Source: Candidatus Nitrotoga sp. CP45 (GTDB lineage: Bacteria > Pseudomonadota > Gammaproteobacteria > Burkholderiales > Gallionellaceae). Taken from it: a DNA stretch of 64,000 nucleotides. Positions 6,594 through 18,969 of the stretch are shown here, one piece after another. The first letter of the stretch is position 1. The number at the start of each line of letters is the position of its first letter. Below the pieces are notes generated by a model that was given only the letters and a program-made list of their open reading frames with translations, was not told where the DNA came from and searched no databases. The stretch lies in the NCBI GenBank assembly GCA_945874105.1, contig CAMCFJ010000009.1:16592-80591 (forward strand). Direction: 5' to 3'. The position numbers and the translations under genes were made by a program.

Positions 6594-6670
<77 letters not shown>

Positions 6671-6748
6671 TATAATCAAGGTGTTAGGATATAAATCTAG
6701 CTCCGTTGTTTTTTCTGTAGTCAAAAACGTACCACTTTCCAATAAATC

Positions 6749-7744
6749 TTAAGCCAAAACAGCAGGCTTGCGATCTACCCATTGTGCAAGATGTTCACTG
6801 GACAGGTGCGCATACTTCTGCACCATCTCCGGTGATGACCATCCGCCCAATTCCTGCAATACATGCATCGGAGTGCCTTCTTGAATGTGCCAGCTTGCCC
6901 AAGTGTGCCTGAGATCATGCCAGCGAAAATTCTCGATGCCTGTTCGCTTTAATGCCTTGTGCCATGCCTTGGTGTTCACATGAGAAACGGACATGCCGTT
7001 GAAGGTGAACACATAAGCTAGATGCTTGCCGATCTGTTTGTGCAGCACTAAAACCGCTGCGCTTGACAGTGGAACGGGAATCGCTTTTCTGGCCTTGGCT
7101 TGATCGGGGTGTATCCATGCCGTTTTGCGCAATAAATCCACCTGTGACCATTGCAGACCAGTGACATTGGAACGCCGCAAGCCTGTTTCCAGACTGAATC
7201 GCGCCATGTCAGCAAGATGCAAAGGCAATTCGGTAATCAGCCGGTCAGCTTCATTCCGAGTTAGCCAGCGCACTCGCTTGGTCGGTTCCGGCAGCATACG
7301 CACCACCGGAGCACGATCCAGCCATTCCCATTCATTGCAGGCTTTCCTGAGAATTGCCCGGACAACTTCCTGCATACGATTGACCGTTGAGTTTGCGACC
7401 CCTTCGGCTTGCTTCGCGGCAGAAATCCTGTCCAGCACATCTCGTTTGATTGCCTGCAATTCGATGCCTGTCAGATATTGATCCAGCCAGCGCAAATGAT
7501 AAATGTCGCTGACCTGCGAGGCTTTATGTTTCGTCTCGCCCAGATACTTAACAACAGCATCGTTCCACTTGTAGATCGGCTTGGCTCCTAGCCTTTCCTG
7601 CTCCCACAAGGACGACTTCAGCTTTGCTTCGTACTCTTCCGCTTTATCGCGGACGGGAGTGCCAGAACTTTGCTGTACTCGCTTGCCCTTGTGGGTGAAA
7701 CGAACCCACCAGACTGATGAGTCCTCACGCTTGTAGAGTGACAT
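6749..7744 (-). CDS. Tyrosine recombinase / phage-type site-specific integrase
   Basis: C-terminal catalytic text FSLETGLRRSNVTGLQW, FRWHDLRHTWASWHIQEGTPMHVLQELGGWSSPEMVQKYAH; adjacent to the tRNA att site. Confidence 0.95.
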   Translation of the reverse strand: MSLYKREDSSVWWVRFTHKGKRVQQSSGTPVRDKAEEYEAKLKSSLWEQERLGAKPIYKWNDAVVKYLGETKHKASQVSDIYHLRWLDQYLTGIELQAIKRDVLDRISAAKQAEGVANSTVNRMQEVVRAILRKACNEWEWLDRAPVVRMLPEPTKRVRWLTRNEADRLITELPLHLADMARFSLETGLRRSNVTGLQWSQVDLLRKTAWIHPDQAKARKAIPVPLSSAAVLVLHKQIGKHLAYVFTFNGMSVSHVNTKAWHKALKRTGIENFRWHDLRHTWASWHIQEGTPMHVLQELGGWSSPEMVQKYAHLSSEHLAQWVDRKPAVLA

Positions 7745-7952: not shown

Positions 7953-9353
7953 CTAACCGCCTTTAGATGCCTTGCGATAAGCTTCAGCAGCAATTTCAGT
8001 TTCTAGTCGCTTTTGTTCTTCGAGTCTTCGTTCTTCGTCAGAGTTATTCGAAAGTGTGTTGAACTCTCTTGCACGCAGACGGACTTTCTCAAGTAAAAAT
8101 TCTTCCGCAGCCAACCCCATAAATTGCCCGCTAGTTTGCAAATACGCATAGAAGTCGTAAAGAAAACGATCAAGACCATTCCCATAATTCGTAATGCCAT
8201 ACTTTGCCATGTACGAAGCAATCGAACTTGCCCCCAAAGAAAATATCCTTTTATCGTCTGGTAATCGTGTTGCCTTGAATGACCTTGTAAGCGCCCCTCC
8301 ATCGGTTTCCCAGTCAATTGAAGATAGATATGCCCATAGAGGATGAACAGGCCATCGGGAACGCGTCTGGTCGTCTGGATTAGGCAGGGTCAGGCGCAAC
8401 CACTCTGTTGAGGCGTAGCTCCAGAGGCCGTTCAGATTCGCCAATACACTGTCGAGACTTACAAGGCCATGCTGTGCCAATACTTCACGCCTGAATTGAA
8501 ATTCCACGCGCCAGATGGATTCGTCACTCTTCCACCCTGCTGCTTGCCATAACGGGATAAGGTCACCACGACCACTGCTAAATGTTTCCAGCAATTTGTT
8601 ATATAAACGGCAAGCCATGATGCCACCCAGACCAACAGTCCAGCCTGTGAACTGTTCCGCTACAGCGTAGGCAGCTATGTTTTTGCCGCGAGTTACCCAT
8701 GCTTTACGATCCCATGACTCCATGTCTTCATTGGAGACAAAATCAGCACATAGATCGAGGCGGCTAACGTGAGCAGAATCGGTGAGCTTGCCCAACTCTT
8801 CCAAAATTGAGCGCAAGTGTATTTCTGCTTCTTTGGGTGTGACGCTAGATAGATACTGCGAAGATAGCTTTACATAGGCCATAGGCGTTCGTTTACTGGC
8901 TCTAGATAGGCTAATGCGGAATGCACCATCTTCTAGGACGTATGGGAACACCGACGAGCCTTTATCCTTGACCTCGAAGATATGACCCGCAATGGAGTAT
9001 TGCGCAAGAGCTTGCTGATCTATTTCGGTATGTTGGGCGAGTTGCTTGAGCTTGGTTAAATGTTCCTGAACCGGCGGGAAAATCTCACCCTGATAGGAAA
9101 GATAAAGACTATCAACCCCAAACCTTAAAAGCTTGAAATACTCATTATTGCTGTTATAGGGTTCTCTGTTAGTAGGCGTCGAACCCTTTGCCACCTCGAC
9201 ACGAGTCCGGTCGGCCGCACCGCGCACGCTGGCGCGTGCACCCGTGCGACCGGCCGGACTCGTGTCTGCGGCGGCTTGAATGGTTGTATCGCTCTCTGAA
9301 CCGAGAGACTGACGATCTGTTGATTTTTTCTGCATGATAAACTCCTTGACCAT
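7953..9353 (-). CDS. Replication initiation protein, Rep_trans / rolling-circle-like
   Basis: Motif VSRLDLCADFVS and overall Rep_trans-like layout; position beside int/xis. Family call by eye. Confidence 0.65.
   Translation of the reverse strand: MVKEFIMQKKSTDRQSLGSESDTTIQAAADTSPAGRTGARASVRGAADRTRVEVAKGSTPTNREPYNSNNEYFKLLRFGVDSLYLSYQGEIFPPVQEHLTKLKQLAQHTEIDQQALAQYSIAGHIFEVKDKGSSVFPYVLEDGAFRISLSRASKRTPMAYVKLSSQYLSSVTPKEAEIHLRSILEELGKLTDSAHVSRLDLCADFVSNEDMESWDRKAWVTRGKNIAAYAVAEQFTGWTVGLGGIMACRLYNKLLETFSSGRGDLIPLWQAAGWKSDESIWRVEFQFRREVLAQHGLVSLDSVLANLNGLWSYASTEWLRLTLPNPDDQTRSRWPVHPLWAYLSSIDWETDGGALTRSFKATRLPDDKRIFSLGASSIASYMAKYGITNYGNGLDRFLYDFYAYLQTSGQFMGLAAEEFLLEKVRLRAREFNTLSNNSDEERRLEEQKRLETEIAAEAYRKASKGG
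9198..9266. repeat. 69 bp GC-rich palindrome inside the rep gene
   Basis: GACACGAGTCCGGTCGGCCG (9198-9217) vs reverse complement of 9247-9266, 18/20 identical; inner GCACGC/GCGTGC arms. Confidence 0.85.
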
Positions 9354-9435: not shown

Positions 9436-10338
9436 TCAGTGCCTTGACCTTTTGTTGATAGTCTGAAACTCGCGATATTCGCGTAAGCGCTTAGACAAAT
9501 AACCGACATCCTCTATTCTGTTCTCGTAACCACCAACACCTGCATCCTCACAAATATCAAGAATTTCACGGTGCTTGAGCGATCCGTCCAGATAGCCGCC
9601 TTCATCCAAAAAGGCGAAAGTCAGCCACAGAGTTTTGTAGCGTATTTTACTGCGTAGGAGTGGACTTGTGAGACGATAGTGCAACTTGTCCAGGAAGCCT
9701 ACTTCACCGCCTGAAATTGCTTTTTCATAACGTTCCTTGAAGTAGGGTAAGGCCGACAAAATACGCTTGTCAATCTGCACGGCAAGGCAATATGCGTCGT
9801 CATCGCCTCGTTCTGCCGCCGGTACCAAGTCAGTCATTTTGCGCCCATGAACCATAATGGCAATAGTGTTAAAGAAAGCTGCAAAGAATGCAGACATGCT
9901 AATCCGGGTCTGTTTAATAAATTCAGCTTGTTCTTCCGGTTTAAGTTCGCCGAATTCCTTATTTACATCCTGTTCCTTTTGTGGGGTGTCCGGCAGATTC
10001 TCTAAAATGGTATCGGTGGACTCACCCATAAACTGGATTAGTTCTTCTGCGCAGCATACTTGCTCATCCTGGGACATCAGTTTGAATTTTGTGCCCAATT
10101 CATTTATTTGTTCGGCTGGCATATAAGCTAAAAACAACATCTTAATAAATATTTCCTCGCTTCTATAGAGTTCAGGATAATTGTGGATTTTGAGCCTATC
10201 TACCAATTCAGCCATTTTGGGAGGAAGGCTGATCCAGCCACCATGCTGTTCAATGTAAATCAGCATTTCTTCATACTCAGGGATGTTTTCCTTGAGAGAT
10301 GAGGAAATGAATTCGCGAGTGAGTTTCAGTCGTTGCAC
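9436..10338 (-). CDS. Hypothetical protein (300 aa), element A cargo
   Basis: Long ORF, no recognised motif; divergent from the RM operon. Confidence 0.7.
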   Translation of the reverse strand: MQRLKLTREFISSSLKENIPEYEEMLIYIEQHGGWISLPPKMAELVDRLKIHNYPELYRSEEIFIKMLFLAYMPAEQINELGTKFKLMSQDEQVCCAEELIQFMGESTDTILENLPDTPQKEQDVNKEFGELKPEEQAEFIKQTRISMSAFFAAFFNTIAIMVHGRKMTDLVPAAERGDDDAYCLAVQIDKRILSALPYFKERYEKAISGGEVGFLDKLHYRLTSPLLRSKIRYKTLWLTFAFLDEGGYLDGSLKHREILDICEDAGVGGYENRIEDVGYLSKRLREYREFQTINKRSRH

Positions 10339-10511
10339 TTAAAGGGCTTGGGCTAATTTTGCGGGAGGCGCCGCATACTATACACTGGCGCGCAAATAGA
10401 AACACACAGGGGCGGGGACGGTGGCTGTTAACGCGATATACAAGGACTATCTGGCTAAAATATTGAAAAAGCCTTTCCGCTTTTCGTCGCCCATTGGCGC
10501 GGATGTGCTAA

Positions 10512-13500
10512 GTGGGAAGTAGTTTGATGGCCTACATATCTAAAACTCCAAGCAAATCACTGTCTCCGGCATTGCTGAAAATCAAGCCGGGCAGGGAACA
10601 ATTCGAGCAATTCAAGGCAAAGCTGTCTGGGCTTGAGGGGCAGATAAATGGCAGCCCGAACGAAAGCGAAGAGCATCACAAAAACCATATTTCTGATTTC
10701 CTGAAATACGCTTTTAAATTTCCTGCTTACTTCATTAACACCAATGACCGAATCGATCTGGTCATCCACAACGGCAAAGCTCCCACGGATCCGGTTGGCG
10801 TCATCATTGAGGCCAAGCGTCCATCCAGCCAGACGGAAATGCCGTCGCAGGACAGTCTCAACGTCAAGGCGATGCAGGAGCTGGTACTTTATTACCTGCG
10901 CGAGCGTGTTACGGCGAACAATCTGAACGTAAAGCACCTTGTCATTACCAACGGCTACGAATGGTTTATTTTCGATGCTCATGTTTTTGAGAAAGCCTTT
11001 GCCAACAACAAAGCCCTGGTCAAGCAATTCAACGAGTTTGAGGCGGGACATTTATCTGGCAACACCACGGACTTTTTTTACAGGGAAATCGCCAAGCCTA
11101 CCATTGAAAAAATGGGCGATGTCGAATTTACCCGTTTCGATTTGCGTGAAGAGAATAGTGACAAAAAACTCATTGCCTTGCTCAAGGTGTTTTCGCCGGA
11201 GCATTTGCTCAAACTCCCGTTTGCCAATGACAGCAACAGCCTAAACAAAGATTTTTATTCGGAGTTGCTACACCTCATTGGTTTGATCGAAGTCAAAGAG
11301 GGCAGTAAAAAACTCATCCAGCGCAAACAGGAGGGCGAACGCAATCGTGGCTCGTTGCTGGAAAACGCCATCGCCAAACTGGATGCACAAGACAGGCTGC
11401 GCCATTTTGAAAAGCCGAGTTTGTTTGGCGAAACCAAACAGGAGCAGTTGTTCAACGTCGGGCTGGAGCTGGTTATCACATGGGTCAACCGCATCCTGTT
11501 CCTCAAACTGCTCGAAGCCCAGCTCATCACTTACCACAAGGGCGATAACTCCTACGCATTCCTCAACTCGCAAAGAATAAAAAGCTTTGATGAGTTGGAC
11601 ACCCTTTTTTTTGAAGTGCTGGCGCGCAAACTTGATGAGCGTGAAGAGCCCATCAAACAGGCCTTCGCCAAGGTGCCCTATTTGAACAGCTCCCTGTTTG
11701 AGCCGACCGAGATAGAAAGCAAGTCGCTATTCATAGGCAATCTGGTGGGAGAGGTAACGCTGCCGCTCTTCGGTTCAACCGTGCTCAAAGACGCAAAGGT
11801 GAAACGCAGGACGGGCGAGCTGAATACGCTGGAATACCTATTCGCTTTTCTGGATGCTTACGACTTTGCCAGCGAAGGCAAGGGCGAGCTTAAAGACGAC
11901 AACAAAGCGCTGATTAACGCCTCCGTGCTGGGGCTGATTTTCGAAAAGATCAACGGTTACAAAGACGGCTCGTTCTTCACGCCCGGCTTCATCACAATGT
12001 ACATGTGCCGCGAAACCTTGCGGCGCGCAGTGGTGCAAAAGTTTAACGAAGTGAAGGGCTGGAATTGCAACAGCCTCACCGATCTTTATAACAAAATTGA
12101 AGACCGCACCGAAGCCAACACCCTCATCAACAGCCTGAAGGTATGCGACCCCGCCGTTGGGTCGGGGCACTTTTTGGTCTCCGCGCTGAATGAGTTGATC
12201 GCCATCAAAAGCGAACTGGGTATCCTGCAGGATGCCGAGGGTAAGCGGCTCAAGAATTATTCCATCGAGATCATCAATGACGAGTTGCTTGTTCTGGATG
12301 AGGAGGGAGACGAATTCAGTTACAGCCCGGCCAACCCGGAAAGCGCGCGCATCCAAAAAACGCTGTTCAACGAAAAGCAGACCCTCATCGAGAATTGCCT
12401 GTTCGGCGTGGATATCAACCCCAACTCCGTCAAGATATGCCGCCTGCGCCTGTGGATCGAGCTGCTGAAAAACGCCTATTACAACGCCGACGGGCAACTC
12501 GAAACCCTGCCGAATATTGACATCAACATCAAGGTCGGCAACTCGCTCATCAGCCGCTTTGCGCTGGATACGGATTTGAAGGATGCTCTGAAGAAAAGCA
12601 AGCTGACTTTGGCTGGCTACAGGAAGGCGGTGGATACATACCGCAACGCCACCAGCAAAGAGCAGAAGCGCGAAATGGAGAAGTTAATTGCGGAAATCAA
12701 GAATGATTTTCGCACCGAAATTCTATATCACGACCCCAAAGCCAAGAAGCTGGAAAACATGCGGGCAGAGCTTAAGCTCTTGGAGCTTCCGCAAACTCTG
12801 TTGGAAGAACCAGCAAAAGAAAAAAAAGAACGGAAACAGAAACAGGAAAAACTGAAACTACAATTCGATAAACTGAATGTCGAAATCGAAGAGATCAAGA
12901 ACAACAAGATTTACGAAAATGCTTTCGAGTGGCGCTTTGAATTTCCAGAAGCATTGAATGACGAAGGTGTATTCGCGGGCTTTGATGTTGTGATTGGGAA
13001 TCCACCATATATCTTTACTCGTGAGTTAATTAGCGAAGAAGATAAGGTTTATTTCAATACCAACTACATGCAAACACAGTTCAAAATTAATTTATATTTT
13101 TTGTTTGTTGAGCGTGCGTGGAGATTGTTAAATGTTAAAGGTGCATTTGCTTTCATTATCCCTAATAACTGGCTTACGCTTGAGACCGCATCAAATTTTA
13201 GAAAATTTATTCTTGGTGATACTAAGAATACGTTAATTGTTAATTGCAGAGATAATATTTTCGATAACGCAAGTGTGGATTCAAGTATATTAATTTTTGA
13301 CAAGTTTGGCGAGCAAGAAACTATTGTTTTTGAGCTTATTAATGGAAGCCTCACACTCACAAAACAATCTCCTTCTTCTATCTATCTTAACAACAAAAAT
13401 CATATTATTAATTATAGTCAAGTAGGTGGCGGGAGCAACTCTTCGTTGTTGGAGAAGATTGATGTTAATAGTGTGAAATTAGAAAGTATCGCTGAAGTCA

Positions 13501-14222
13501 GAAATGGAATTCAAGCTTATACAGTTGGTGAGGGTACCCCACCATTAACAGATGAGATGAAAAATGCTCGTGTATATCATAGCAAAGTCAAAAAGGGGGA
13601 TGATTGGCTTAAGTATGTTGATGGTGTAGATGTAGGTAGGTATAAATTAGGATGGAGCGGGCAATTTGTTAAATATGGAAATAACTTGTCGCGTCCTCGT
13701 AAAAATGAACTCTTCATTAACGAAAGACTATTAGTCAGGCAAATTCCTTCTAAGCCCCCGTACTCTATTTTTTCTTGTTATGTAAATGAAATTGTTGTTA
13801 ATGACAACAACAGCATGGTTGTTACTAACGTAACTAATGGATATAACTTAAAAACTATTCTTGCATTAATTAACTCTCGCCTAATTTCATATTGGTTTTT
13901 ACAAAAATTCGGCAAGTTGCAGAGGAAAGTTTTTCCTCAATTCAAAGTTAAAGAGCTTAGAGAGTTCCCTATTAAATATTTAGATTTTTCATCAGCCAAA
14001 GATATTGAATTGCAAAATATCTTAATTAATTTGGTCGATGACTATGAAAGACTAAGTCTAAATGGGGAGCTTGCTGATACATTAGAAGCTGTAAATATCA
14101 AAATTGATCGCATTGTTTATGCGCTGTATGGTTTAACCCCAGAAGAAATCGCCCTCGTTGAAGGCAATGCGGAAGAAGTTCTTTCAGTGCCGAACGCAGA
14201 TGCGGCGGAGGTGTGCGAGTGA
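10512..14222 (+). CDS. Type IIG restriction-modification enzyme: N-terminal PD-(D/E)xK-like nuclease fused to Eco57I-type N6-adenine methyltransferase and TRD
   Basis: D...PVGVIIEAKRP (D-ExK-like), VCDPAVGSGHFLVSALNE (SAM motif I), FDVVIGNPPYIF (NPPY), C-terminal TRD. ATG at 10527 is an alternative start. Confidence 0.85.
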   Translation: MGSSLMAYISKTPSKSLSPALLKIKPGREQFEQFKAKLSGLEGQINGSPNESEEHHKNHISDFLKYAFKFPAYFINTNDRIDLVIHNGKAPTDPVGVIIEAKRPSSQTEMPSQDSLNVKAMQELVLYYLRERVTANNLNVKHLVITNGYEWFIFDAHVFEKAFANNKALVKQFNEFEAGHLSGNTTDFFYREIAKPTIEKMGDVEFTRFDLREENSDKKLIALLKVFSPEHLLKLPFANDSNSLNKDFYSELLHLIGLIEVKEGSKKLIQRKQEGERNRGSLLENAIAKLDAQDRLRHFEKPSLFGETKQEQLFNVGLELVITWVNRILFLKLLEAQLITYHKGDNSYAFLNSQRIKSFDELDTLFFEVLARKLDEREEPIKQAFAKVPYLNSSLFEPTEIESKSLFIGNLVGEVTLPLFGSTVLKDAKVKRRTGELNTLEYLFAFLDAYDFASEGKGELKDDNKALINASVLGLIFEKINGYKDGSFFTPGFITMYMCRETLRRAVVQKFNEVKGWNCNSLTDLYNKIEDRTEANTLINSLKVCDPAVGSGHFLVSALNELIAIKSELGILQDAEGKRLKNYSIEIINDELLVLDEEGDEFSYSPANPESARIQKTLFNEKQTLIENCLFGVDINPNSVKICRLRLWIELLKNAYYNADGQLETLPNIDINIKVGNSLISRFALDTDLKDALKKSKLTLAGYRKAVDTYRNATSKEQKREMEKLIAEIKNDFRTEILYHDPKAKKLENMRAELKLLELPQTLLEEPAKEKKERKQKQEKLKLQFDKLNVEIEEIKNNKIYENAFEWRFEFPEALNDEGVFAGFDVVIGNPPYIFTRELISEEDKVYFNTNYMQTQFKINLYFLFVERAWRLLNVKGAFAFIIPNNWLTLETASNFRKFILGDTKNTLIVNCRDNIFDNASVDSSILIFDKFGEQETIVFELINGSLTLTKQSPSSIYLNNKNHIINYSQVGGGSNSSLLEKIDVNSVKLESIAEVRNGIQAYTVGEGTPPLTDEMKNARVYHSKVKKGDDWLKYVDGVDVGRYKLGWSGQFVKYGNNLSRPRKNELFINERLLVRQIPSKPPYSIFSCYVNEIVVNDNNSMVVTNVTNGYNLKTILALINSRLISYWFLQKFGKLQRKVFPQFKVKELREFPIKYLDFSSAKDIELQNILINLVDDYERLSLNGELADTLEAVNIKIDRIVYALYGLTPEEIALVEGNAEEVLSVPNADAAEVCE

Positions 14223-15676
14223 CTAAGCATTGGGTTGCCCAAGCGCTGAACTGGCTCACGCAAAGCCTTGAGCCGGTTCCTCACGAGCTCAACGAGCTGG
14301 ATTGGAAAGCGAGTTTGACTGGCAATAAGGAGCGTTTAATTGAACACCTGATTGCTTTTGCTAATCATTCGAATGGCGGCTTCCTCGTGTTCGGTGTGCA
14401 GGATGATGCCACTCTGACAGGCGTGGAACAGATTGCGGTGGCGCAAATCGTTAATACGCTCGCCAACCTTGGGCGCGATGCAGTGGAGCCACCCTTGGTG
14501 ATTGACCATGCGGTGGTTGATTATCGGGGGGTGGCGCTGCTGATCGTTTACGTGGCCGAGCAAAGCAATAAACCTGTGCATCGGCGCGGTAAATCTATCG
14601 AGGAAGCATGGATACGTTCGGGAGGCACTACCCGCAAGGCATCGCGTCAGGATGTGGGCGGCTTGATGTTGAACAGCAAGGCGCCGCGATGGGAGTCACT
14701 GCGTGCATCCAATCTTTTGCAAGGTACAGCGCTTTTAGTTTTGCTCGATCTTTCGGTCATTGCGAATTTGCTCCAGCGCCCTTTGCCTGTCGAGGAGAAC
14801 GAGCTTTTGCGCTGGCTGGCAGATGAGGGCATGATTACCCCGGATGGCAATGGTTACTACATCACTAATTTCGGCGCGATTGCGGCTGCGCGCAACCTTG
14901 AACAGTTCGACACGCTTAAACGCAAGCGCATTCGTCTCATCCGCTACCGGGGCATGAACAAGGTAGAGACCATAGATGAGATGATGGGTCAGAAGGGGTA
15001 TGCTGCGGGATTCGAGGGGTTGATTGCTCATCTCAAGCGTGTGCTGCCGCACTCCGAAGTGATCCAGCAATCGTTGCGCACGGAAGTCTGTATTTATCCT
15101 GAAATCGCTTTGCGCGAACTGGTCGCCAACGCGCTTATCCATCAGGATTTCACCATTACCGGTAGCGGGCCGATGATTGAGGTTTTCGATGATCGTATTG
15201 AGTTTACCAACCCCGGTAGTTTGTTGCCGGGCAAGCGACCGGACAGGTTGATCGGCACTACGCCTGAATCGCGTAACGAAATTCTGGCATCTGCATTCAG
15301 GCGTTATCGAATTTGTGAAGAACGTGGTACTGGTTTTCAAAAAGTCGTCGCAAGTATTGAGCTATTCGGGTTGCCTCCGGTGGTGTTTACCCCGATGGAG
15401 AATGCGTTTAAGGTTACGCTCTATGCACCGAAGAAATTTGATGACATGTCACAAACTGAACGCATAGAGGCTTGTTATCAGCACGCTGTGCTTCAATATT
15501 TGTCGAGTCAGGCTGTGACTAACACCACAGCACGAAAACGTTTCAAGCTACATGAAAAACGTCGCACCGCAGTATCCAATTTGCTCAAAGAAGCGGCAGA
15601 AAAAGGGCGGATTAAGCGTAAAGACCCTGATGCAACCTCGTCTAAATTTGTCGAGTACGTTCCTTACTGGGCATGA
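14213..15676 (+). CDS. AlbA_2 (Schlafen-like) domain / HATPase_c_4 ATP-binding protein, putative transcriptional regulator
   Basis: ELDWKASLTGNKERLIEHLIAFANHSNGGFLVFGVQDD (AlbA_2) and LRELVANALIHQDFTITGSGPMIEVFDDRIEFTNPGSL...RNEILASAFRR...ERGTGFQK (HATPase_c_4); overlaps the RM gene by 10 bp. Confidence 0.85.
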   Translation: MRVTKHWVAQALNWLTQSLEPVPHELNELDWKASLTGNKERLIEHLIAFANHSNGGFLVFGVQDDATLTGVEQIAVAQIVNTLANLGRDAVEPPLVIDHAVVDYRGVALLIVYVAEQSNKPVHRRGKSIEEAWIRSGGTTRKASRQDVGGLMLNSKAPRWESLRASNLLQGTALLVLLDLSVIANLLQRPLPVEENELLRWLADEGMITPDGNGYYITNFGAIAAARNLEQFDTLKRKRIRLIRYRGMNKVETIDEMMGQKGYAAGFEGLIAHLKRVLPHSEVIQQSLRTEVCIYPEIALRELVANALIHQDFTITGSGPMIEVFDDRIEFTNPGSLLPGKRPDRLIGTTPESRNEILASAFRRYRICEERGTGFQKVVASIELFGLPPVVFTPMENAFKVTLYAPKKFDDMSQTERIEACYQHAVLQYLSSQAVTNTTARKRFKLHEKRRTAVSNLLKEAAEKGRIKRKDPDATSSKFVEYVPYWA

Positions 15677-15693
15677 GTGTCGTGAGAATTTCT

Positions 15694-15770
15694 TTACTTC
15701 ATTTGAAAACGGAAAGCTGCAAAAATAATAATGAAATCAATTGGACTTTACTTCATTTGAAAATGGAAAT
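15694..15770 (+). repeat. Two 23 bp direct repeats TTTACTTCATTTGAAAA(C/T)GGAAA
   Basis: 15694-15716 and 15748-15770, one mismatch, 54 bp offset. Confidence 0.85.
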
Positions 15771-15792
15771 GCTAGGTCTGCCTGATTGGATT

Positions 15793-15918
15793 CACAACAG
15801 CGATGCTCTTGTGAGGGCTTGGTCACAGACTGGCAAGGCCAGACTGTGGAAATTTAATGGGCACAACAGAGATTCTCTTGTGCAATGCGTAGTCACAGAC
15901 TTGCGATGCAAGACTGTG
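15793..15918 (+). repeat. Two tandem hairpin pairs (A1-B1, A2-B2) with compensatory stem changes
   Basis: A1 15793-15813, B1 15824-15848, A2 15862-15882, B2 15894-15918; stems preserved despite base changes. Confidence 0.85.
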
Positions 15919-15980
15919 GGGCTGTAGTCAAAACTGTACCACTTCCACGCTTTGTAGGTGTTCCTGTAGCTGTTTTATAC

Positions 15981-16092
<112 letters not shown>

Positions 16093-16103
16093 GTATAATC
16101 AAT

Positions 16104-16140
16104 GGGTTAGATCGTAAATGATCTAGCCCGTTTTCTTTTT
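16104..16140 (+). terminator. Rho-independent terminator after middle att
   Basis: gggttagatc gtaaat gatctagccc gttttcttttt. Confidence 0.75.
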
Positions 16141-16713: not shown

Positions 16714-16755
16714 ACTGGGGTATTTCACCCAGTCGACGGGGTGAAATACCCCAGT
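16714..16755 (+). terminator. Strong hairpin, terminator-like
   Basis: Perfect 17 bp arms actggggtatttcaccc / gggtgaaataccccagt, 8 nt loop, followed by cccccattttttc. Confidence 0.65.
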
Positions 16756-17668: not shown

Positions 17669-17738
17669 TGTCAAACAGCGCGTTGAAATTCTCACTTTTA
17701 TGCACGCTATTTGGTGGATAAAATTGTACGCTGTTTGA
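17669..17738 (+). repeat. Inverted-repeat (attC-like) structure 2
   Basis: TCAAACAGCGCGTTGAAATT (17671-) ... AAAATTGTACGCTGTTTGA (-17738), right after the stop of 16966-17658. Confidence 0.6.
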
Positions 17739-17740
17739 TA

Positions 17741-17852
<112 letters not shown>

Positions 17853-17861
17853 GCATAATCA

Positions 17862-17902
17862 ATGGCTTATCGGAATTAACCTGTAAGCCATTTTTATTTT
17901 TA
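17862..17902 (+). terminator. Rho-independent terminator after distal att
   Basis: atggctta ... taagccat followed by tttttattttta. Confidence 0.75.
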
Positions 17903-18095: not shown

Positions 18096-18722
18096 ATGGC
18101 TCGTTACGGCACAGATCAATTAACCGAAGCTCGATTTGAATTGGGTTCGCGTGGGCGTGTTCTGAAAAATCTCCTTGGCATTTGTAGCAAGCGCGAAATG
18201 GATGAGATGGAGGCAACCAAGCTAGTCGCGGTAACTGACTGGGCAATCCGGCACGTTTCTGCTGACCAGCGTATCACCTCCGCCGATATTTGCCTGCTGC
18301 ACAAGCAATGGCTAGGTGAAGTGTATCCGTGGGCAGGCGAGTATCGGCAGGTGAATATTAGCAAGGGTAGTTTTGTATTTGCGATGGCGGCGCAAGTGCC
18401 GCGCTTGATGTTGGAGTTTGAGCGGAAGGAGCTGGCACGATTTACGCCATGCGCTTTTGACGACCTGGATGATGTGCTGGAAGCATTGGCTATCACACAT
18501 TGCGAGTTGGTGCTGATCCATCCTTTCCGCGAGGGCAATGGGCGCGTGTCACGTTTGCTATCTACGCTTATGGCTTTGCAAGCGGGTTTGCCGTTGCTAA
18601 ATTTTTCCAGCATCAAAGGAAAACAGCGCGAGGCTTACTTTGCCGCAGTGCGGGCAGGGATCGGGCGCGACTATCAGCCGATGATAGAGGTTTTCAGAAA
18701 AGTGGTAGCTGCCAACAGCTAG
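18096..18722 (+). CDS. Fic family protein (putative AMP transferase toxin)
   Basis: Canonical Fic motif HPFREGNGR followed by LLSTLMALQAG; NISKG flap region. Confidence 0.95.
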   Translation: MARYGTDQLTEARFELGSRGRVLKNLLGICSKREMDEMEATKLVAVTDWAIRHVSADQRITSADICLLHKQWLGEVYPWAGEYRQVNISKGSFVFAMAAQVPRLMLEFERKELARFTPCAFDDLDDVLEALAITHCELVLIHPFREGNGRVSRLLSTLMALQAGLPLLNFSSIKGKQREAYFAAVRAGIGRDYQPMIEVFRKVVAANS

Positions 18723-18889
18723 CGGGTTTTTGCTGGCTTATTACGGGGGATGGAAGTGAGTGCTCGTTCAGCCGCTTTCTTCACGCCTTCAATCGCGGTC
18801 GAAGAAAGCACGTTCGCACGCAAGGCGCATTGATAGTCTCGCGCATTGTGCAAGTGTCGATTTTGTTGAAGCAGAGATTTTGGAGTCAT
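18719..18889 (-). CDS. Putative Fic antitoxin-like small protein (56 aa from internal Met; ORF extends to 18946)
   Basis: MTPKSLLQQNRHLHNARDYQCALRANVLSSTAIEGVKKAAERALTSIPRNKPAKTR; S-x-x-x-E-G inhibitory-type motif; stop overlaps the fic stop. Confidence 0.55.
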   Translation of the reverse strand: MTPKSLLQQNRHLHNARDYQCALRANVLSSTAIEGVKKAAERALTSIPRNKPAKTR

Positions 18890-18969
18890 GGCCGCACTAT
18901 AAGGCACACGGTGTGATAACTCAACAGCCACAAACGCCGCAAACATCGTGTCAATTACGCTGATCTTTT

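Follow-up and report, generated by a model that had tools for sequence, protein, structure and literature searches.

Results and Discussion

An integrated element with hairpin pairs near its right end

The window, by which we mean the whole 64,000-nucleotide stretch of contig CAMCFJ010000009.1 from Candidatus Nitrotoga sp. CP45 that was analysed, carries a 9.5-kb element integrated in a tRNA-Pro gene. Inside this element, near its right end and 130 nt before attR, two pairs of short hairpins are located at 15793-15918, each consisting of a hairpin A and a hairpin B (together called AB in the following). An earlier reading made from the letters alone (the sequence-only reading) had described these tandem pairs as lying next to attR. 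Their positions and sequences were found to be exact with a spacing of 69-70 nt between the two units, and the tRNA-Pro 3' end, repeated directly over 54 nt at 6626-6679 and 16048-16102, places them beside the attachment site as proposed. The features of the region are as follows.

6626-6679, plus strand: attL, 3' end of the intact tRNA-Pro gene (6594-6670) and the following bases
6715-6737, plus strand: 23-nt repeat near the left end, candidate integrase arm site (putative role)
6749-7744, minus strand: tyrosine integrase (PF00589)
7953-9353, minus strand: Rep-like protein of 466 aa, with PHROG 'replication initiation protein' matches in 7 of 9 family members
9436-10338, minus strand: companion ORF, conserved beside rep in relatives, no Pfam match
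10512-14222, plus strand: cargo, type IIG restriction-methyltransferase
14213-15676, plus strand: cargo, Schlafen/AlbA_2 protein with HATPase_c_4 domain, ending 117 nt before A1
15793-15813, plus strand: hairpin A1, CACAA-c-AGC-gat-GCT-c-TTGTG
15824-15848, plus strand: hairpin B1, CACAG-a-CTGGC-aag-GCCAG-a-CTGTG
15849-15861, plus strand: 13-nt linker between B1 and A2, gaaatttaatggg (family form roughly NNNNTTTRAYTGG), carrying an inserted toxin-antitoxin module in relatives
15862-15882, plus strand: hairpin A2, CACAA-c-AGA-gat-TCT-c-TTGTG
15894-15918, plus strand: hairpin B2, CACAG-a-CTTGC-gat-GCAAG-a-CTGTG
15922-15944, plus strand: partner of the 23-nt repeat, directly 3' of B2 (role likewise putative)
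16048-16102, plus strand: attR, repeat of the tRNA-Pro 3' end
18096-18722, plus strand: Fic gene, part of a degraded second cassette that lies outside attR; full hairpin sites follow the same cassette in other genomes
18929-18937, plus strand: truncated start of an A hairpin (CACAAACGC) that ends the Fic cassette; relatives have a full site here

A complete site has the layout A1 - 10 nt - B1 - 13 nt - A2 - 11 nt - B2, and many loci possess a single A-B unit only. The pattern of hairpin A occurs twice in the window compared to 0.01 matches expected from shuffled sequences. Treated as single-stranded DNA, the minus strand folds as described in both units (z -3.5 and -4.0) and the plus strand does so in unit 1 (z -2.8); in unit 2 the minimum-energy fold of the plus strand has hairpin A slightly displaced. 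The left edge of the cargo in the window itself (10338-10512) was searched for a hairpin too, with a negative result. The second cassette of the window, 18096-18937, is the one with the Fic gene that terminates in the truncated A hairpin.

The surroundings show some further repeats. Positions 17725-17869 are 93% identical to 15965-16109 and include another copy of the tRNA-Pro 3' end; this is what is left of the right end of a second element, which had inserted at this tRNA in tandem. Just 5' of the hairpins a 24-nt direct repeat (CTTTACTTCATTTGAAAAYGGAAA) is present at 15692-15715 and 15746-15769, both copies being 96% identical and 54 nt apart, and a near-perfect palindrome of 21+21 nt with zero spacer is found at 16714-16755. 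An ORF of 84 aa (15673-15927) overlaps the AlbA_2 stop by ATGA and crosses the hairpins, probably by chance; a coding role of the hairpin region was set aside because spacers and linkers vary by single bases in length among the copies.

Evidence that the fold is under selection as a single strand

From the changes between the two copies in the window the sequence-only reading had proposed selection on a folded single-stranded DNA or RNA, and the covariation indeed extends to further homologues. Across 66 units, 96.5% of the pair cells are standard-paired and two-sided changes occur in 8 of the 18 pairs (65 cells), a value that was reached in none of 500 shuffles, while slid registers are paired to at most 44%. 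A second set of 27 units from Nitrosomonadaceae gave 92% paired cells compared to a shuffle maximum of 89% and 26 two-sided cells, although these units were retrieved with the covariance model and are therefore biased towards it. The mismatch within the B stem is A.A in nearly all copies, as counted without requiring A.A, and hairpin A shows A or C facing A or C. In the reverse strand this A position frequently forms a G.T pair instead, leaving the constant unpaired position on the plus strand only. Selection on the fold as a single strand is well supported by the covariation together with this constant mismatch on one strand. Mutation bias probably explains the pattern poorly, since mismatches of this kind should be lost when quasi-palindromes are corrected by template switching.

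Distribution of the family

By DNA search, the AB motif was found in 41 of 159 Gallionellaceae genomes, and a covariance model built from the 66 units identified it in 37 of 127 Nitrosomonadaceae genomes with up to 12 matches per genome, a few of them being weak reverse-strand echoes of the same site; as most assemblies are drafts, the counts of absence are soft. Applied to 400 genomes of the order, the same model matched in 19, weak matches counted. When the exact B pattern was searched in GTDB genomes, nearly all matches were labelled Gallionella, Gallionellaceae, Nitrotoga, Nitrosomonas, Nitrosospira, Nitrosovibrio or Nitrosomonadales, and a few were MAGs with other labels. The window's genome has four AB units, with further copies on another contig. 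The motif was absent from the IMG/VR, plasmid and phage collections searched.

Association with a Rep-like gene

The elements from Nitrosomonas show the order tRNA - int - rep - companion ORF - AB - cargo with a distance of 1.05-1.23 kb between AB and rep in 11 cases, and one of these elements (L250) has a second AB after the cargo. The coordinates of the 27 linked cases without exception place AB and rep on opposite strands. A Rep-like gene was detected in 19 of 41 AB-positive and 8 of 118 AB-negative Gallionellaceae genomes (p=8e-8) and in 23 of 37 and 15 of 90 Nitrosomonadaceae genomes, respectively (p=1e-6); since genomes and cassettes are related, these and the following p-values overstate independence. 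The gene was found in less than two thirds of the AB-positive genomes and 23 Rep-positive genomes have no AB, many of the assemblies being drafts. AB also adjoins P4-type integrases with no rep seen nearby. The region 5' of rep in Rep-positive genomes lacking AB contained no clear substitute hairpin, except for one A-like hairpin in L301.

The label Rep for the 466-aa protein is tentative. The PHROG matches of its family are weak (best E 8e-8), and the homologues share the conserved motifs VSRxDL..D, RLYxK and WRxEF, which presumably recall Rep_trans initiators. Searches against Pfam and NCBIfam returned nothing for the Rep-like protein or the companion ORF, a PDB sequence search with the former gave no credible match, and used as a query in IMG/VR it also found nothing; its predicted structure was unusable (pLDDT 38). 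The companion family (window 9436-10338; L053, L159, L250, L251 and L253) is a conserved neighbour of the Rep-like gene in tRNA-integrated elements of both families and showed no convincing match in PHROG either.

Linkage to a Rep-like gene, strand polarity and hairpin structure are shared with rolling-circle origins and oriT hairpins as used by Rep_trans proteins and HUH relaxases. In the main rival explanation AB simply serves the element as an origin of replication, transfer or packaging, such as a dso, sso or oriT, its duplication around the cargo and the mosaic junctions resulting from ordinary RecA recombination between these origins. The association with the Rep-like gene, the fixed strand relative to rep and the position of AB 5' of the rep operon in Nitrosomonas all agree with such an origin, and hybrids of the type A1-B2 fit a deletion between B1 and B2, the near-identical 57-nt repeats probably being long enough for homologous recombination. 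However, loops and spacers are variable among the 66 units, so that no evident nick motif or constant unpaired nick site is seen, the Rep family is unassigned by Pfam, and several AB copies per element that bracket cargo as well as a module inserted into the middle of a site are odd for a single origin. We regard this explanation as rather unlikely, even if it is the strongest of the competing ones.

Cassettes between the hairpin copies

The modules found between AB copies comprise toxin-antitoxin systems (a RelE/MqsA-like pair called HigBA-type, YafQ and HigB), Fic and restriction modules, and in Nitrosomonas also defence genes, for example a ThsA-like SIR2 protein and a HEC-06/type IV-like protein. 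Adjacent sites share one orientation in 21 of 21 pairs with the genes lying between them, as in integrons. The same cassettes recur across genera with the homology stopping at the hairpin edge: For the HigBA-type cassette (~90% identity) it ends 0-2 nt past B in many comparisons and is followed by several unrelated right contexts. In a family-wide search with this module, HigBA-type copies of 89-92% identity were mostly bordered by a site at either end. The older homologues of 74-86% identity lack such sites altogether, and the stretch over which they match is confined to the operon, beginning near its start and stopping at about the stop codon. In Nitrosovibrio, this HigBA-type module occurs with an A2B2 of the Gallionella type beside the local hairpin type.

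The cleanest filled site is found in G104, where the arrangement is A1B1-gcggTTTGATgcag ... ccgTTTGATagg-A2B2 and TTTGAT flanks the module on both sides; uninterrupted sites near the same integrase type are present in G063, G010, G034 and G081. Among 18 full sites the similarity of A1B1 tracks shared left flanks (p=0.04) and that of A2B2 shared right flanks (p=0.02), and not the reverse. We therefore place the break between B1 and A2, in a small sample with few independent pairs.

As regards mechanism and ALTERNATIVES, we favour, with a confidence just short of even, a strand-polar folded-DNA site at the border of core and cargo that is processed by the element's own enzyme, the cargo being exchanged between direct repeats. 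The AB pair would be a site acting in cis in one family of elements that integrate in tRNA genes and are built as int - rep-like - companion ORF - cargo; it is located where the conserved core meets the cargo and would act when one strand is single and folded. Direct-repeat copies at both ends of the cargo would make the module a cassette, so that elements, also those of different genera, could acquire, lose or exchange toxin-antitoxin and defence modules. The processing enzyme is probably the Rep-like protein of the element itself, which would start at one AB and end at the next, instead of RecA-dependent recombination taking place between the copies. Junctions within repeated sequence can, of course, also come from homologous recombination. 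The more far-reaching version, namely an integron-independent gene-cassette system in which a replication-initiator-like protein acts on paired single-stranded DNA hairpins from one AB to the next and thereby excises toxin-antitoxin and defence modules and inserts them between integrative elements of nitrifying and iron-oxidising bacteria, seems unlikely to us at present. The sequence-only reading had offered a replication origin or nick site, a single-strand recombination site and a structured RNA as candidates. The two DNA candidates may each still be right, and our data connect them in that the motif marks the core/cargo borders of mobile elements and tracks the Rep-like protein.

The structured RNA has lost ground. 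AB could function as RNA, as a structured 3' end or a bidirectional terminator between cassettes, and several cassette genes do have their stop codons within ~8-20 nt of AB, which also occurs where the ends of two genes converge; the RNA fold z is -1.85 for a region of 251 nt. But 15793-15918 drew no match from the Rfam covariance models with E values of up to 5 allowed, the window sequence contains no T-run 3' of the hairpins, AB is also found 5' of genes in Nitrosomonas, and the cassette borders would be left poorly explained. We consider a function as RNA highly improbable.

The TTGAT-like sequence of the linker core on both sides of the inserted module also brings transposition into play, as ISDra2 targets TTGAT. 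AB might be a REP- or MITE-like non-autonomous repeat that is moved by a Y1 (HUH) transposase on folded single strands and carries cassettes like composite elements do. Remnants of Y1 transposases are present in the window's genome; the Y1 genes found are located elsewhere with no AB beside them. The low copy number of AB and its strong tie to integrative elements do not fit. Like AB, REPs and REPINs with their TnpA-REP (RAYT) are short, imperfect and intergenic hairpins, and a conserved stem mismatch as in AB is common to REPs and the ends of IS200/IS605 (PMC8266576); in REPs it can be essential to single-strand processing (PMC8266576). The definition of REPs, however, includes GTAG/CGTC tags (PMC3733652), and neither tag is present at a fixed place in the flanks of AB. 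That AB is such a repeat appears improbable to us.

For the preferred reading, AB looks like an undescribed site for the handling of folded single-stranded DNA; neither the repeats nor the elements were described in the open-licence papers that we searched, which makes the novelty provisional. If AB is processed in this form, it would be a cassette route outside integrons by which genes for toxin-antitoxin and anti-phage systems spread within bacterial families that matter for nitrification and iron oxidation. The covariance signature offers a means to find the core/cargo borders of such elements, and the Rep-like protein and the AB hairpins form a specific candidate pair of enzyme and substrate.

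Comparison with integrons and pdif modules

Integron attC sites and their gene cassettes resemble AB in having a foldable site at the 3' end of genes, head-to-tail order, toxin-antitoxin cargo and strand-specific unpaired bases. In contrast to the one long hairpin of attC, AB consists of two short hairpins per unit, and the complementary R''/R' boxes RYYYAAC ... GTTRRRY at 50-150 nt from each other were found in 0 of 16 hairpin loci, while the integron contig of the genome yields one. The integron integrase was detected in 32 of 41 AB-positive and 57 of 118 AB-negative Gallionellaceae genomes (p=0.001), but in Nitrosomonadaceae the numbers are 8 of 37 and 18 of 90 (p=0.81), showing no association, and one complete genome with five AB units has no integron integrase at E<=1e-60. 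As the box motif is absent and the correlation with IntI from Gallionellaceae is not replicated in Nitrosomonadaceae, we rejected membership in the attC family.

The pdif/Xer modules of Acinetobacter are similar in that small modules with toxin-antitoxin cargo lie between short, partly palindromic sites. They differ in the architecture of the site, B having 11-bp arms around 3 nt compared to the 6-nt centre generally known for dif-like sites, and to our knowledge neither the A-B layout nor the constant mismatch is a feature of dif.

The window's genome also has, at G000:C22 (L209), an integron integrase with single-ORF genes alongside and at least one canonical attC, at L209:8282-8344, which is separate from the hairpin family.
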